The notes under the pieces are model-generated. The model had not been told where the DNA came from, ran no database searches, and was given only the letters and a program-made list of their open reading frames with translations. From Microbacterium hominis NBRC 15708 (GTDB lineage Bacteria; Actinomycetota; Actinomycetes; Actinomycetales; Microbacteriaceae), in contig NZ_BCWI01000005.1 of NCBI RefSeq assembly GCF_001592125.1, forward strand, positions 62,001 through 126,000: DNA of 64,000 nt, read 5' to 3'. Shown piece after piece: positions 44,360 through 49,517 of the stretch. The stretch's first letter is position 1. Each line of letters opens with the position of its first letter. The translations under genes and the position numbers were made by a program.

Positions 44360-44743
44360 TCACGCCGGACGGGAGTAGCGGTCGCCGCTGAAACCGATGA
44401 CGAAGTAGCCGATCGGCGCGATCACCCACAGCAGCACGAACGAGAAGAAGCCGCCGTGCCCGAAGCCGCGTCCGATGCGCAGCGCGACGATGATCGAGAA
44501 CACGATGTTGACGAGCGGGACGATCGCGAGCAGTCCCCACCACGCGGAGAAGCCCGCGATCTTGACCTGGATGAACCAGTTCACGATGGGGATCAGGGCG
44601 AGGATGCCGGGATACCCGGCCTTGCTGAACACCTTCCACATCGCCACCGCGAGCAGCACGTAGTAGGTGAGGAAGAGCGCGAGCCCCGTCCCCTGCCCGA
44701 AGAAGGACTGCCACTGGTCGAGGGTGCCTGCGCTGGTCATCAC
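44360..44743 (-). CDS. DUF5684 membrane protein
   Basis: A 127-residue protein with four hydrophobic segments. The pattern VFSKAGYPGILALIPIVNWFIQVKI and WWGLLAIVPLVNIVFSI is that of DUF5684, related to the membrane part of signal-peptidase-like proteins; no catalytic Ser/Lys pair is present. The GTG at 44743 is preferred to the ATG that follows it because TAGCAT (44750-44755) ends 6 bases before it. Confidence 0.85.
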   Translation of the reverse strand: MMTSAGTLDQWQSFFGQGTGLALFLTYYVLLAVAMWKVFSKAGYPGILALIPIVNWFIQVKIAGFSAWWGLLAIVPLVNIVFSIIVALRIGRGFGHGGFFSFVLLWVIAPIGYFVIGFSGDRYSRPA

Positions 44744-44862
44744 GGCGCCATGCTAGGGCATCGCCCGCCGACGCATTCGTAAGCGCGACCGACGCGCCGC
44801 ATAGAAAGCGCATAGCGAGCCCGTCTGTCATGGGAATCCGGACACACACGTCAGGAGTTCCC

Positions 44863-45474
44863 ATGGCCCCCTTCGCCGCCGTCGCCCTCGATCTCGTCGC
44901 GATCGCCCTGCTCGCCTTCGCCGTCTACTACCCGCGCCATCGGCGCCGCGACCTCGCGGTCGCCTTCGTGGGGGTGAACGTCGGGGTGCTCGCCGTCTCG
45001 ATGGTCCTCACCGACACGGCCGTGGGGGCGGGGCTCGGGCTCGGCCTGTTCGGCGTACTCTCGATCATCCGTCTGCGCTCGCGCGAGATCGAGCAGAGCG
45101 AGATGTCGTACTACCTCGCGGCGCTCGCGATCGGCCTCATCGCCGGTCTGAGCTCGTCGGTGACGTGGCTGAGCATCGGCCTGATCGCACTCGTGGTGGG
45201 CGTCATCGCGGTCGTCGACAGCCCCGCGCTGCTGCGCCGCTCGCGCGAGCAGCAGCTCGTGCTCGACCGCGCCTACATCGACGAGGCCGAGCTGCACCGG
45301 GCCGTCGCCCAGCTGCTGGGCACCCCCGCGCACCGCATCACCACCCGCAGCATCGACCTCGTCGCCGACACCACCGTCGTGGACGTGCGGTACTCGGCTC
45401 CGCGACCGGGCAGCGCACCGTCGCGGCATCCCGAGACGCTGGAGACCATCGGCACGCCGGGGCTGGGACGATGA
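44863..45474 (+). CDS. DUF4956 membrane protein, probable partner of the VTC enzyme
   Basis: A 203-residue protein. Four transmembrane helices occupy residues 1-135, with the DUF4956 hallmark GLFGVLSIIRLRSREIEQSEMSYYLAALAIG in the middle; a soluble tail follows. It overlaps the VTC gene by four bases. In yeast, polyphosphate made by VTC4 is fed through a membrane subunit; DUF4956 may fill that part in bacteria, but this is inference from its constant pairing with VTC proteins. AGGAG lies 6 bases before the ATG. Two GCATAG repeats 11 bases apart lie upstream (44799, 44810). Confidence 0.85.
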   Translation: MAPFAAVALDLVAIALLAFAVYYPRHRRRDLAVAFVGVNVGVLAVSMVLTDTAVGAGLGLGLFGVLSIIRLRSREIEQSEMSYYLAALAIGLIAGLSSSVTWLSIGLIALVVGVIAVVDSPALLRRSREQQLVLDRAYIDEAELHRAVAQLLGTPAHRITTRSIDLVADTTVVDVRYSAPRPGSAPSRHPETLETIGTPGLGR

Positions 45475-46295
45475 GCCCGCTCACCGCCCTGCAGCCGCTG
45501 CAGCACCTCGACACCGTCGATCTGACCGCGCTGAACGCGGAGGCCGCACTGCAGACCCGCGTGGACAGGAAGTACCTCCTCCCCCTCCGCGCACTCCCGG
45601 AGGTGCTGGCCGCGCTCCCCGCGGGCGCCCAGGTGCTGGAGGTGGCGGGCGAGCGGTCGCTGCGCTACGCCTCCCAGTACTTCGACACCCCGGCGCTGGA
45701 CAGCTACTACGGCGCCGTCCACGGCCGCCGCCGCCGTTTCAAGGTGCGCTCGCGCACCTACCTCGACTCGGGCGGATCGTTCCTCGAGGTGAAGACCCGG
45801 GGAGCGCGCGCCGCCACCGTGAAGGATCGCGTCCCCGTCGCGGTCCGCGCCGCCGACGACGTCCTCGACGACGACGCCGTCTCGTACGCGACCGACCTGC
45901 TCGCCGACGCGGGCATCCCCGACGCCGAACGGCTGGCGACGGCGCTCGTGCCGGTGCTCGTCACCCGCTACCGGCGCACGACGATCCTCCTGCCCGGCAC
46001 CGACCGCCACGACCCGTCGCGGGCGACCATCGACACCGACCTCGCCTGGCTGACGCGGCTCGACGGCGACGGACGGATGCTGCGGCTGCCGGCATCCGTG
46101 GTCGTCGAGACCAAGTCGGGCCAGCGCGCGGGGGCCCTGGACCGCGCGCTGTGGCGCCACGGACACCGCCCCGCGACGGTGTCGAAGTACGGCACCGGTA
46201 TGGCCGCGCTGTACCGCGACCTGCCCGCCCATCGCTGGAACCGCGTTCTCACGCGGCACTTCTCCGCCGCGACGGTCAGCACCGTCGCCGCGTGA
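45471..46295 (+). CDS. VTC-domain polyphosphate polymerase-like protein
   Basis: A 274-residue protein with the VTC (CYTH-related triphosphate tunnel) domain. Basic residues that line the tunnel in VTC4 are visible: TRVDRKYLLP (K34), YGAVHGRRRRFKVRSRTYL, EVKTRG, and the closing VVVETKSG. It would polymerise phosphate from ATP or handle polyphosphate. Its start overlaps the DUF4956 stop (ATGA), and the lipoprotein gene follows 38 bases later, making one operon. Confidence 0.87.
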   Translation: MSPLTALQPLQHLDTVDLTALNAEAALQTRVDRKYLLPLRALPEVLAALPAGAQVLEVAGERSLRYASQYFDTPALDSYYGAVHGRRRRFKVRSRTYLDSGGSFLEVKTRGARAATVKDRVPVAVRAADDVLDDDAVSYATDLLADAGIPDAERLATALVPVLVTRYRRTTILLPGTDRHDPSRATIDTDLAWLTRLDGDGRMLRLPASVVVETKSGQRAGALDRALWRHGHRPATVSKYGTGMAALYRDLPAHRWNRVLTRHFSAATVSTVAA

Positions 46296-46333
46296 GCCCC
46301 GCTCCTCCACTCCCCCGTCGAAAGGACGACATC

Positions 46334-48166
46334 ATGAACGACACACCCACCGCCCGCACGCCCCGCACCCCTCGCGGCCGGCTCTGGCTGCTCGCCGCCC
46401 CCGCACTGGCGGTCAGCCTCGTGCTGGCAGGATGCGCCGCCACGGCGACGTCCTCGCCGACACCCAGCGCCACCGCGTCCGCCTCCACCGTGGAGACGGC
46501 GTCCACGCTCTCCAGCGCGATCACCGGCGCCACCGATGCCACCCAGACGGCCGCCGACGTGCTCGCCGGCAACCAGGAGACCCACGACAAGGCCGACGAC
46601 GACGCGTACGACGCGGCGACGGCGACCACGATCACCCTGTCCGGATCATCCGCGACCGTCTCCGGGGAGGGCGCCGCCGTCAGCGGGGCGACCGTGCAGA
46701 TCACCGCTCCCGGGACGTACGTGCTCTCCGGCTCGTACAGCGGCCAGATCGTCGTCGACTCGACGGTCGACGGACAGGTGCGCCTCGTGCTCGACGGGGC
46801 CCAGATCGCCACGACGGCGGGCGCCGCGATCGACGTTCAGGCGGCCGACGAGGCGGTCGTGATCCTCGCGGACGGCACGACGAACAGCCTCTCCGACGCG
46901 TCGAGCTACGCCGACGGGGCCCACAACGCGGCCCTCTACAGCGCCGCCGACCTCACGATCACGGGCACCGGCTCGCTGACGGTGACCGGCAACGGCAACG
47001 ACGGCATCGCCTCGACGGACGGCCTGGTGATCCAGTCGGGCACCGTCGCGGTGACGGCCGTCGACGACGGCATCCGCGGCAAGGACTACGTCGTCGTCCG
47101 CGGCGGCGCCATCACGGTGTCCGCCGGCGGCGACGGCCTGAAGAGCGACAACACGGAGGATGCCGCCCGCGGCTACGTCTACCTCGCCGATGGCACCACG
47201 ACGATCACGAGCGGCGACGACGGCATCGACGCCGCCACCGACGTCGTCACCACCGGCGGCACCCTGTCGATCACGGCGGGCGGCGGCTCCGGCGGCGACG
47301 CCGACGGCGGCGCGAAGGGCATCTCCGCGGGCGTCATCGCCGTGCTCGAGGGCGGGACGGTGCAGGTGGATGCCGCCGACGACGCGGTCAACACGAACGC
47401 GTACGCGCACCTCGGCGGCGCGGCCGTCACCCTCTCCTCGGGCGACGACGGCGTGCACGCCGACCTGCAGCTCGTCGTCTCGGCGGGAACGACCACGGTC
47501 GCCCGGGCGTACGAGGGATTCGAGGCGGCGCAGATCACGGTCTCGGGCGGCGACACGTCCGTGACCTCGAGCGACGACGGCCTCAACGTCTCCGAGCCGG
47601 ATGCCGGCGGAGGGGCGCAGACCCTCGTGATCACCGGCGGCACGCTCCTGGTGGACGCGCAGGGCGACGGCCTGGACGTCAACTCCGGCACGCTGACGAT
47701 GTCGGGCGGCACGGTCGTGGTGAACGGCCCGACCGCGAACGACAACGGCGCGCTCGACGTCGACAACGGCATGACGATCTCGGGCGGCGTCTTCCTCGCC
47801 GCCGGCTCGTCGGGCATGGCGATGGCACCGTCCGCCGACTCGGCGCAGGCCTCCGTGCAGTTCACGACGAGCGGGACCATCGCGGCCGGCACGGTCCTGT
47901 CGGTGGTGGACTCGTCGGGAACGGTGCTCGCGACCTTCACGACCACGAAGCAGACGCAGAGCCTCGTCTACTCCGACGCCGCCCTCGTCAACGGCCAGAC
48001 CTACACCCTTACCTCCGGCGGCACCGCGGGCACCGCGCTGCTGGGCGGGCTCACCAGCGGCGGCAGCTCCGGCGGCACGACGGTGGGCTCGGCGGTGGCC
48101 GGCGAGCAGACGTCCTCGGAGATGGGCCCCGGCGGCGGCATGGGCGGCGGCGGCCAGCGTCCGTGA
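46334..48166 (+). CDS. Cthe_2159-type beta-helix lipoprotein
   Basis: A 610-residue exported lipoprotein. The signal peptide ends VLAGC (Cys lipidated, about residue 35). The mature part is a long right-handed beta helix of repeats of the form GDDGI/GDGLD with GG-TV strands (SGDDGIDAATD, AGGDGLKSDN, DDGLNVSEPD), matching the calcium- and carbohydrate-binding family of Cthe_2159. The C-terminus is Gly/Ser/Met-rich. Many surface Asp could bind Ca. Its place in an operon with DUF4956 and VTC suggests a surface partner of that system. Confidence 0.88.
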   Translation: MNDTPTARTPRTPRGRLWLLAAPALAVSLVLAGCAATATSSPTPSATASASTVETASTLSSAITGATDATQTAADVLAGNQETHDKADDDAYDAATATTITLSGSSATVSGEGAAVSGATVQITAPGTYVLSGSYSGQIVVDSTVDGQVRLVLDGAQIATTAGAAIDVQAADEAVVILADGTTNSLSDASSYADGAHNAALYSAADLTITGTGSLTVTGNGNDGIASTDGLVIQSGTVAVTAVDDGIRGKDYVVVRGGAITVSAGGDGLKSDNTEDAARGYVYLADGTTTITSGDDGIDAATDVVTTGGTLSITAGGGSGGDADGGAKGISAGVIAVLEGGTVQVDAADDAVNTNAYAHLGGAAVTLSSGDDGVHADLQLVVSAGTTTVARAYEGFEAAQITVSGGDTSVTSSDDGLNVSEPDAGGGAQTLVITGGTLLVDAQGDGLDVNSGTLTMSGGTVVVNGPTANDNGALDVDNGMTISGGVFLAAGSSGMAMAPSADSAQASVQFTTSGTIAAGTVLSVVDSSGTVLATFTTTKQTQSLVYSDAALVNGQTYTLTSGGTAGTALLGGLTSGGSSGGTTVGSAVAGEQTSSEMGPGGGMGGGGQRP

Positions 48167-48275
48167 CCTGACCGATAGCACGTGTCCGAGGGCCGGACAA
48201 GCCCCTCGTGGCGGCCCCGCCGGGGCGCCTACCGTGGAACGGACACTGTACGAGCTGGACGAGGGGAGTCACATC

Positions 48276-48476
48276 ATGGGATTCATCGACGACGCGAAGA
48301 CCGCCGCGGAGACGGCCGGCCGCAAGCTCAAGGAAGGCTTCGAGGACACCGTCGACCGCGTCGAGGACAAGATCGACGAGGTCAAGGCGGATGCCGAGGT
48401 CAAGAAGGCCGAGGCCGAGCGCGACTCGGTGCACAAGCGCAACGAAGTGAAGGAAGAGCTCCGCGGAGACGCGTGA
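48276..48476 (+). CDS. CsbD/YtxH-like small hydrophilic protein
   Basis: A 66-residue, highly charged helical protein (DDAKTAAETAGRKLKEGF, then KIDEVKADAEVKKAEAER) in the style of CsbD/YtxH stress proteins. It is the second such protein in the window, after 28314. A TACCGT element near 48229 gives a leader of about 40 bases, and GAGGGGAG lies before the ATG. A very strong palindrome follows at 48487. Confidence 0.82.
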   Translation: MGFIDDAKTAAETAGRKLKEGFEDTVDRVEDKIDEVKADAEVKKAEAERDSVHKRNEVKEELRGDA

Positions 48477-48486
48477 GACCCGCCGC

Positions 48487-48526
48487 ACGACGAGGGGCCC
48501 CGGAGATCTCCGGGGCCCCTCGTCGT
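48487..48526. terminator. Perfect 40-base palindrome between convergent genes
   Basis: Each arm is 20 bases (ACGACGAGGGGCCCCGGAGA and its complement) with no unpaired bases in the DNA. It starts 10 bases after the stop of the small stress protein and 7 bases from the end of the aldose epimerase gene. It would end transcription from both sides. Confidence 0.88.
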
Positions 48527-48533
48527 CGTGGTG

Positions 48534-49517
48534 TCAGCGCGCGAACCCGGCGATCCGCCACGACGCCGCGGCGGTGGCGCCCGGCTCGATGACGACGAGT
48601 CCGGCGTCGTAGTCGTAGCGCTCGGCGTTGAAGGCATCCGGCGCGCACGTCATGGGCTCGACCGCGAGTCCGGCCCGGTTCCCCGCGGGCGCGCTGCCGT
48701 CGGCGAGCGGCGGGAGATCGGCGGTGTGGATCTGCACCCACGGGCACGCCGCATCCCAGACCATCTCGACCCCGGTGCCCGACGGGTCGGTCAGGCGCAC
48801 GACCGCGGCGCCGTCGGTGCGCTGCAGACCGGTGAAGGCGTGGTCGATCTCCACGTCGCCGAGCGTGCGCTCCGCACGCCAGTCGAACCGCGGCGACCCC
48901 GTGACGTCGGCCAGCCCGATCGGCGCGAGCTGCGCGTCGGTGACCTCCAGCACCTGGCCGGCGGGCAGGTCGAGCGTCCACTCGTCGAGCCGCGCGGGGC
49001 CTGCGACGAGATAGGGGTGCGGGCCGGTGCCGAACGGCGCGGCATCCGCGCTCCGGTTCGTCGCGGCGACGGTCTGCGTGAGGCCGTCGGCGGAGAGGCG
49101 GTAGGTGGTCTCGACGTGCAACCGCCACGGGTAGCCGGCCTGCGGCACGATCTCGGTGGCGAGCGTCACCTCGTCCTCGCTCTGCGCCACGACGTCGAAG
49201 TCGAGCCAGACCGCGAGGCCGTGCAGGGCGTTGGGGCGGCCGGGATCGCTCAGCGCGAGCCGGTGCGTGTGCCCCGCGAAGGTGTACACCCCGTCGACCA
49301 CGCGGTTGGGCCACGGAGCGAGGGTGGCGCCGCGGTAGGCCGGACGCACCTCGTCGGCGGCGAAGGGGACGACGAGGTCGCGCCCGTCCAGGGTGAGGGC
49401 GCGCAGCGACGCGCCGACACTGGCGATGTGCGCTTCGTACGATCCGGAACGGAGGGTGACGTCGGTGCCCGAGGCGGGGACGGACGTCGCAGACAGGTGT
49501 GCAGGTGACAGTGGCAT
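48534..49517 (-). CDS. Aldose 1-epimerase family protein
   Basis: A 327-residue galactose-mutarotase-like protein. The conserved APWPNRVVDGVYTFAG, the catalytic His in GTGPHPYL and the second His-containing segment NALHGLAVW are present; the Glu late in the chain is in LAVEPMTCAPDAFN. It would interconvert anomers of a hexose, or act on a phosphorylated sugar (YeaD-like). I chose ATG 49517, since TACGAT (49525-49530) is 7 bases upstream; an ATG at 49526 would start within the -10. Confidence 0.9.
   Translation of the reverse strand: MPLSPAHLSATSVPASGTDVTLRSGSYEAHIASVGASLRALTLDGRDLVVPFAADEVRPAYRGATLAPWPNRVVDGVYTFAGHTHRLALSDPGRPNALHGLAVWLDFDVVAQSEDEVTLATEIVPQAGYPWRLHVETTYRLSADGLTQTVAATNRSADAAPFGTGPHPYLVAGPARLDEWTLDLPAGQVLEVTDAQLAPIGLADVTGSPRFDWRAERTLGDVEIDHAFTGLQRTDGAAVVRLTDPSGTGVEMVWDAACPWVQIHTADLPPLADGSAPAGNRAGLAVEPMTCAPDAFNAERYDYDAGLVVIEPGATAAASWRIAGFAR

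Follow-up and report, generated by a model that had tools for sequence, protein, structure and literature searches.

A constant VTC-DUF4956 gene pair with an exchangeable surface protein, a candidate module for membrane-coupled polyphosphate synthesis and export in bacteria

Introduction

The yeast VTC complex, which unites Vtc4 with Vtc1/Vtc2/Vtc3, ties a tunnel-fold polymerase to membrane helices whose basic residues are required for the vacuolar store (PMC9911596; here and below, citations refer to the accessible portions of the articles). In bacteria, reviews ascribe polyphosphate to PPK1 and PPK2 (PMC10657179, PMC6973038). VTC-type genes are also described from bacteria. Genes for CotH, polyphosphate polymerase, DUF4956, and DUF4832 adjoin the pel genes of streptococci and clostridia; for bifidobacteria, the same article reports CotH, polyphosphate polymerase, and DUF4956 (PMC7112168, 2020). 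Clostridium perfringens carries VTC genes near CotH (PMC2879425). The accessible text of these last two articles gives no polyphosphate export function for the CotH, polymerase, and DUF4956 proteins. Here, we describe a DUF4956-VTC-lipoprotein gene trio in a 64,000-nucleotide stretch of Microbacterium hominis NBRC 15708 (the window; assembly GCF_001592125.1, contig NZ_BCWI01000005.1, positions 62,001 to 126,000). The original prediction for this DNA had read the trio as one operon that could form a polyphosphate synthesis-and-export machine. In the open-access literature, with preprints and most subscription papers outside the scope, no work-out of bacterial VTC-DUF4956 function was found. The association of CotH, polymerase, and DUF4956 genes is already published; the module described here has a candidate polymerase of Vtc4 type, a membrane partner other than that of yeast, and a surface protein that varies between loci.

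The locus and its closest relatives

The trio and its main sites in the window are as follows:
44863-45474, + strand: DUF4956 membrane protein, 203 amino acids (Pfam PF16316, E 2.9e-55)
45070-45078, + strand: codons R70-R72 of DUF4956, with R70 and R72 at the end of modeled helix 3
45471-45474, + strand: 4-base ATGA overlap of the DUF4956 stop and the VTC start, read from the sequence
45471-46295, + strand: VTC polyphosphate-polymerase-type tunnel protein, 274 amino acids (Pfam PF09359, E 4.3e-26)
46107-46109, + strand: codon of VTC E213, corresponding by mapping to Vtc4 E426; Glu in 129/129 VTC proteins
46296-46333, + strand: 38-base intergenic gap between VTC and the lipoprotein gene, read from the sequence
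46334-48166, + strand: Cthe_2159-type acidic lipoprotein of a beta-helix family, 610 amino acids (Pfam PF14262, E 1.8e-84)

The coordinates, the 4-base overlap, and the 38-base gap are exact to the base as first predicted. The VTC match scores 92.4 bits (cut-off 23) and the Cthe_2159 match 283.6 bits (cut-off 25.8); the DUF4956 match likewise lies well beyond its cut-off. Simple scans of 44700-48700, the 38-base gap included, found no promoter or terminator sites. Among 90 pairs with VTC directly downstream of DUF4956, a 4-base stop/start overlap is possible in 66, the start being a possible start codon only. VTC, DUF4956, and Cthe_2159 are each present once in the window genome, which also has one PPK1 match and one CotH gene, the latter on a different contig. 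Among the named matches listed, the one closest to the window core comes from Microbacterium sp. RU33B (71% identity over 390 columns).

In common with yeast VTC, the module has the tunnel fold, twelve Vtc4 tunnel residues, and a tie to a membrane protein in which basic residues are conserved. However, its putative polymerase consists of the VTC domain only, its membrane protein matches only DUF4956 above the cut-off, and an exchangeable surface protein is added. The Gram-positive pel loci contain the same core pair together with CotH, some with DUF4832, whereas the window module is free-standing and paired with Cthe_2159; for the pel loci, the accessible text suggests that CotH is regulatory, without proposing polyphosphate export (PMC7112168). 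Clostridium thermocellum Cthe_2159 (PDB 4peu, 4phb) belongs to the same Pfam family as the window lipoprotein, which is longer, carries a lipobox, and adjoins VTC and DUF4956.

VTC and DUF4956 are nearly inseparable

Co-occurrence was scored in three genome samples: family (150 genomes), phylum (396 actinobacterial genomes), and controls (14 genomes). Within the family, VTC is found in 16 genomes and DUF4956 in 19, including all 16 with VTC. Cthe_2159 is found in 15, of which 14 carry VTC (Fisher 1e-16). Of these 14 genomes, 13 have the trio clustered, among them that of the window; G082 is the exception, with its Cthe_2159 gene at another place. The phylum sample repeats the pattern, with VTC in 42/396 genomes, DUF4956 in 44, and only two DUF4956 matches among the 354 VTC-less genomes. 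Cthe_2159 occurs in 23, in G180 and G262 without adjoining VTC. Fisher values in this sample are 1e-54 (VTC/DUF4956) and 3e-21; since related genomes are not independent, all such values are to be read as very small rather than as exact odds. The DUF4956 matches of G373, a VTC genome, and G420, one of the two VTC-less genomes with a DUF4956 match, fall below the curated cut-off, at which DUF4956 is found in 42/396 genomes, 41 of them with VTC.

VTC and DUF4956 are matched in the same three of the 14 controls: Bacteroides ihuae, Corynebacterium glutamicum, and the archaeon Methanosarcina acetivorans. Cthe_2159 is matched in B. ihuae only, and CotH in C. glutamicum, M. acetivorans, and Bacillus subtilis. 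VTC and DUF4956 are thus nearly inseparable. Random co-occurrence, the outcome set beforehand as speaking against the prediction, is not what the genomes show: all 42 VTC genomes of the phylum sample carry DUF4956, and 21 of the 23 Cthe_2159 genomes carry VTC. The claim that the three genes form one conserved unit gains support from this distribution.

The surface partner is exchangeable

A DUF4956 scan with one genome per species kept 80 of 110 confirmed matches, whose phyla were assigned by hand. Among the matches listed, VTC-DUF4956 pairs occur in about ten phyla, many as single metagenome contigs: Actinomycetota (the bulk), Bacillota, Bacteroidota, Planctomycetota, Verrucomicrobiota, Calditrichota, Chloroflexota, Myxococcota, Pseudomonadota (Pelagibacteraceae), and Marinamargulisbacteria. 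Full two-sided context is available for 58 of these listed loci. VTC stands with Cthe_2159 in 31, with CotH in 20, with both in one, and with neither in five; one locus has DUF4956-CotH without VTC.

Pooled with further loci, they give 128 VTC-DUF4956 units, 67 with Cthe_2159, 46 with CotH, two with both, nine with neither, and four on contigs that are too short. Excluded from these are VTC proteins below 190 amino acids, DUF4956 proteins below 120 amino acids, and VTC genes without DUF4956 within 4.5 kb; L165 and L221, which are one contig, are both counted. Removing the four partnerless units with less than 3 kb of flank leaves 124 assessable units, of which 115 have a surface-type partner gene within 4 kb, a count slightly biased toward partners because units with a partner were included whatever their flank. 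A quick maximum-likelihood tree built from the core (129 rows; 37 of 125 inner branches open) requires at least six partner changes and at least three changes of gene order; gain and loss are not distinguishable on it. The partner counts and the at least six partner changes show a constant VTC-DUF4956 core whose surface protein can be swapped. The lipoprotein is therefore not the fixed third part that was first proposed. Cthe_2159 as a constant component was dropped when CotH-like partners were found in its place at many loci.

The CotH labeling profile was iterated on the loci themselves and could drift, so it was checked by Pfam rescans and by a match to solved CotH; the rescan covered all but four of 59 CotH-labeled proteins, namely one duplicate and three that are either fragments or second copies. 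All 40 proteins of set A6 match Pfam CotH at E <=0.001. Set A5 comprises 15 large proteins of other phyla with a CotH-like part and, after it, a region of weak beta-helix similarity; a search with the A5 profile recovers the solved CotH 5jd9 (E 8.5e-13). Eight of the 15 match Beta_helix at E <=0.1; among seven scanned singly, L269 only passes the family cut-off. Profile comparison gave no sign (probability 0.4%) that Cthe_2159 shares an origin with the C-terminal region of these large proteins.

Some loci carry repeated copies. One Actinomycetaceae metagenome-assembled genome has two DUF4956-VTC-Cthe_2159 modules in tandem (L213, 5245-12108). In Actinomyces oris and A. bowdenii, the DUF4956-VTC pair is duplicated ahead of a single Cthe_2159 gene (L225, L229, L233). 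In Rothia aeria, six separate consecutive Cthe_2159-type matches lie downstream of DUF4956-VTC (L227, 10127-15407).

The VTC protein resembles Vtc4

The model of the window VTC protein has a mean predicted local distance difference test (pLDDT) value of 94.4. VIA-align places it nearest to yeast Vtc4 (3g3r; Z 17.0, root-mean-square deviation 3.5 over 220 residues, 26% identity), followed by Vtc2 (Z 15.3) and Escherichia coli ygiF (Z 13.7), although a common fold by itself is no proof of function. A phmmer search of the PDB with the window protein alone did not find Vtc4 (best E 0.3, unrelated enzymes), whereas a profile of 26 VTC proteins finds it at E 7e-21. VTC is the sole Pfam domain of the 274-residue protein at E <=0.1, and no SPX domain was found in it.

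Equivalents of Vtc4 R196, K200, R264, R266, K281, K294, R361, R373, D377, E426, K428, and K458 are kept in 129/129 VTC proteins. For the positions other than R264, R266, E426, and K458, a catalytic role is at most putative. The set R264A/R266A/E426N has been used to impair yeast VTC (PMC9911596), and K458 of Vtc4 is called catalytic (PMC4641920).

TTM tripolyphosphatases such as ygiF and AtTTM3 have the same tunnel fold, and an acidic patch distinguishes hydrolases from Vtc4 (PMC4641920). At the positions mapped to AtTTM3 Glu-2, Glu-4, and Glu-171, the 129 proteins carry Arg (129), Asp or Glu (128), and Lys (129), respectively, so the patch as such is not found, and the window-type proteins differ from the hydrolases at the first and third positions, where no Glu occurs. 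Our mapping between AtTTM3 and Vtc4 is by motif spacing; the Glu-90 match was rough and was left unused. The Glu-4 position may be misplaced: PMC4641920 describes four basic Vtc4 residues as replaced by Glu-2, Glu-4, Glu-90, and Glu-171, whereas our spacing sets Thr198, not a basic residue, against Glu-4. By sequence, these proteins would form a subtype of Vtc4 type that has a single hydrolase-like trait. The predicted polyphosphate-making protein is thus of Vtc4 type in its modeled fold and twelve tunnel residues, but not at the Vtc4 Thr198 position.

DUF4956 carries invariant arginines

The original prediction called DUF4956 a four-helix protein. The AlphaFold2 model (mean pLDDT 86.6) instead has five long helices, at residues 3-26, 29-50, 55-74, 78-96, and 102-118, and a C-terminal soluble domain modeled as beta-alpha-beta-beta. 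R70 and R72 are invariant in 129/129 proteins, all of which also carry Glu or Asp at position 80. The basic loops suggest a topology with the N-terminus outside and the C-terminus inside, which would place R70 and R72 at the cytoplasmic mouth.

Nothing besides DUF4956 is above the Pfam cut-off in this protein; a distant link to the VTC-type membrane domain is possible. An hhalign comparison with 13 MgtC sequences (usable from 13 of 20 fetched loci) gave a probability of 0.5% and no support for a relationship, a distant kinship being possible. Foldseek of the model against the PDB found no match at E <=0.001 (best 0.14), phmmer against PDB sequences found none at E <=10, and the best VIA-align hit, part of an acyl-CoA dehydrogenase (Z 7.8), is at chance level for helical models. 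These missing PDB matches are not evidence for a new fold.

Signs of handling outside the cell

Residues 31-34 of the window lipoprotein read LAGC, like a lipobox. The protein aligns with 4peu, the solved structure of Cthe_2159, with E 4.1e-39 over residues 111-339. Its mature part contains 61 acidic and 11 basic residues. Because of this strong acidity, the lipoprotein probably binds polyphosphate poorly by itself and would depend on cations as a bridge; in the form first stated, the idea that it holds polyphosphate is not supported.

A hydrophobic N-terminal segment is present in 62 of 75 Cthe_2159 proteins, 54 of these 62 with a lipobox; among 58 CotH proteins, 47 have such a segment and 13 a lipobox. 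Gene starts were estimated for these counts, which makes misses unsafe. A single natural open reading frame at L221 joins VTC, a hydrophobic lipoprotein-type segment, and CotH. This arrangement fits a VTC inside and a partner outside the cell; the fusion is one metagenome contig, in which the CotH half could start on its own. A lipoprotein-type inorganic pyrophosphatase gene lies directly 3' of VTC in L243 and L254. Calcineurin-like metallophosphoesterases are found near the unit in L246, L247, L249, and L254 above the cut-off and in L248 below it. The signals at these pyrophosphatase and phosphoesterase loci were read by eye. Together, the fusion and the pyrophosphatases beside VTC suggest a product handled outside.

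PPK1 was searched in 42 of 58 genomes, namely 41 of the 55 with VTC and the VTC-less G107. It is present in 38 of the 41, all but G168, G366, and G427. The C. glutamicum control, matched for VTC, DUF4956, and CotH, has no PPK1 match. Given PPK1 in 38 of 41 genomes, VTC is probably not the housekeeping enzyme, storage being already provided.

Proposed mechanism and alternatives

We consider membrane-coupled polyphosphate synthesis and export the best explanation of the module, with our confidence evenly balanced. On the cytoplasmic side, VTC would lengthen a chain with phosphate taken from ATP, in the manner of yeast Vtc4. DUF4956, probably oligomeric, would pass the nascent chain across the membrane, with R70 and R72 at the cytoplasmic mouth. 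Outside, a surface protein would handle the chain, here the Cthe_2159-type lipoprotein and elsewhere a CotH kinase-like protein, and the window lipoprotein may hold the polymer at the wall through bridging Ca2+ or other cations. The computations show the conserved unit, the Vtc4-type fold and residues, the invariant arginines, the exchangeable surface slot, and the lipoprotein-type signal; the polymerase activity, channel role, topology, and cation bridge are predicted. Of the machine first proposed, the fixed lipoprotein and its direct hold on polyphosphate are not supported. If true, synthesis and export would constitute a second, membrane-coupled polyphosphate route in about ten bacterial phyla, offer candidate machinery for extracellular bacterial polyphosphate and a function for DUF4956, and prompt the question of what serves CotH-type proteins as their extracellular phosphate donor.

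A bolder version seems unlikely to us. In it, DUF4956 would be a polyphosphate export channel, and the exported chain would serve both as phosphate donor for CotH-type kinases and, with acidic beta-helix lipoproteins, as a calcium-polyphosphate glue or mineral seed. If so, high-energy phosphate would be supplied outside the cell, where ATP is scarce, and one core would serve two interchangeable surface chemistries.

Several observations weigh against synthesis and export. DUF4956 is a family of unknown function, and its putative channel role is drawn from position and two arginines only. The VTC proteins carry Asp or Glu in 128/129 where Vtc4 Thr198 and the hydrolase Glu-4 map, and Vtc4 K455 is not conserved among the 129. 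The lipoprotein is strongly acidic, and its studied relative Cthe_2159 binds cellulose and polygalacturonate (PMC6712302). No surface partner is nearby in 9/124 assessable units, and Pfam CotH is matched by only 9/15 of the large CotH-labeled proteins of set A5 (E <=0.1). The counts of exported hydrolases (28 non-actinobacterial loci, L242-L269) and of PPK1 stand without a module-free background. Finally, the parts do not always keep together: G107 (98% complete) has DUF4956 and two Cthe_2159 genes, VTC not being found there; L143 has a VTC-CotH pair without adjoining DUF4956; at L185 (4565-5239), DUF4956 is followed by an apparent Cthe_2159 remnant; and at L231 (8516-10132), a VTC start runs in frame into Cthe_2159. 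The last two may reflect either decay or misassembly.

Another product is an alternative that we regard as doubtful. VTC would act on a membrane acceptor (lipid, glycan, or nucleotide), either adding a short phosphate chain to the acceptor or cleaving the acceptor; DUF4956 would be an anchor, acceptor, or flippase, and the surface proteins would act on the product. The acidic residue at the Glu-4 position sets these proteins apart from Vtc4 as a subtype. Genes for a phosphodiester glycosidase (NAGPA) recur in the vicinity of the module (10/148 loci), as do those for a GtrA-type glycosyltransferase (9/148), one or two representatives of each family having been identified by Pfam. The company of Pel exopolysaccharide genes (PMC7112168) points the same way. 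However, Arg and Lys are universal at the mapped Glu-2 and Glu-171 positions, and the nearest structure is Vtc4, 3 Z units ahead of ygiF.

We think it quite unlikely that the locus is a surface-adhesion or matrix operon, in which Cthe_2159 and CotH bind or modify extracellular polysaccharide, VTC-DUF4956 regulates or charges the envelope, and any polyphosphate stays local, not exported. The polysaccharide binding of Cthe_2159 noted above would fit such a role, as would its distant tie to fibrillar adhesin domains (PMC9210967). Response regulators near the module in 17/148 loci and histidine kinases in 12/148 are likewise in keeping with it; their recurrence suggests signal-controlled expression. 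An adhesion operon, however, leaves unexplained the partner changes on the tree beside a constant VTC-DUF4956, as well as the lipoprotein-type pyrophosphatases next to VTC. Least probable, indeed very unlikely, is a cytosolic or membrane-bound polyphosphate store without export, made by VTC and only tethered by DUF4956, which would agree with the Vtc4-type residues but not with the PPK1 already present in most VTC genomes searched or with the surface-type partner beside most units.

Neighboring genes and minor observations

Two genes flank the trio in the window:
44360-44743, strand opposite to the trio: DUF5684 gene upstream of DUF4956, assigned by Pfam
48276-48476, same strand as the trio: small gene of 66 codons 3' of the lipoprotein gene

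The 66-codon gene has a weak likeness to the YtxH and SAS049 families, both below the cut-off, and a short gene resembling it lies near the module in L075, as judged by eye. NAGPA or GtrA genes are found in L081, L179, L196, L201, L202, L206, L212, L215, and other loci. Regulator or kinase genes are found in L067, L079, L081, L084, L141, L145, L150, L195, L218, L219, L262, and others. VTC is missing or truncated, with DUF4956 retained, at the L231 and L185 positions given above and at L070 (8249-10372). In C. thermocellum, the VTC gene Clo1313_1989 has a weak convergent-mutation signature in ethanol-adapted strains and, in other engineered strains, a change immediately upstream of it (PMC10503014, PMC7063780). 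Proteins of a small family whose central domain is RsgI-like (anti-sigma) are encoded near VTC in L153, L156, L161, and L164.

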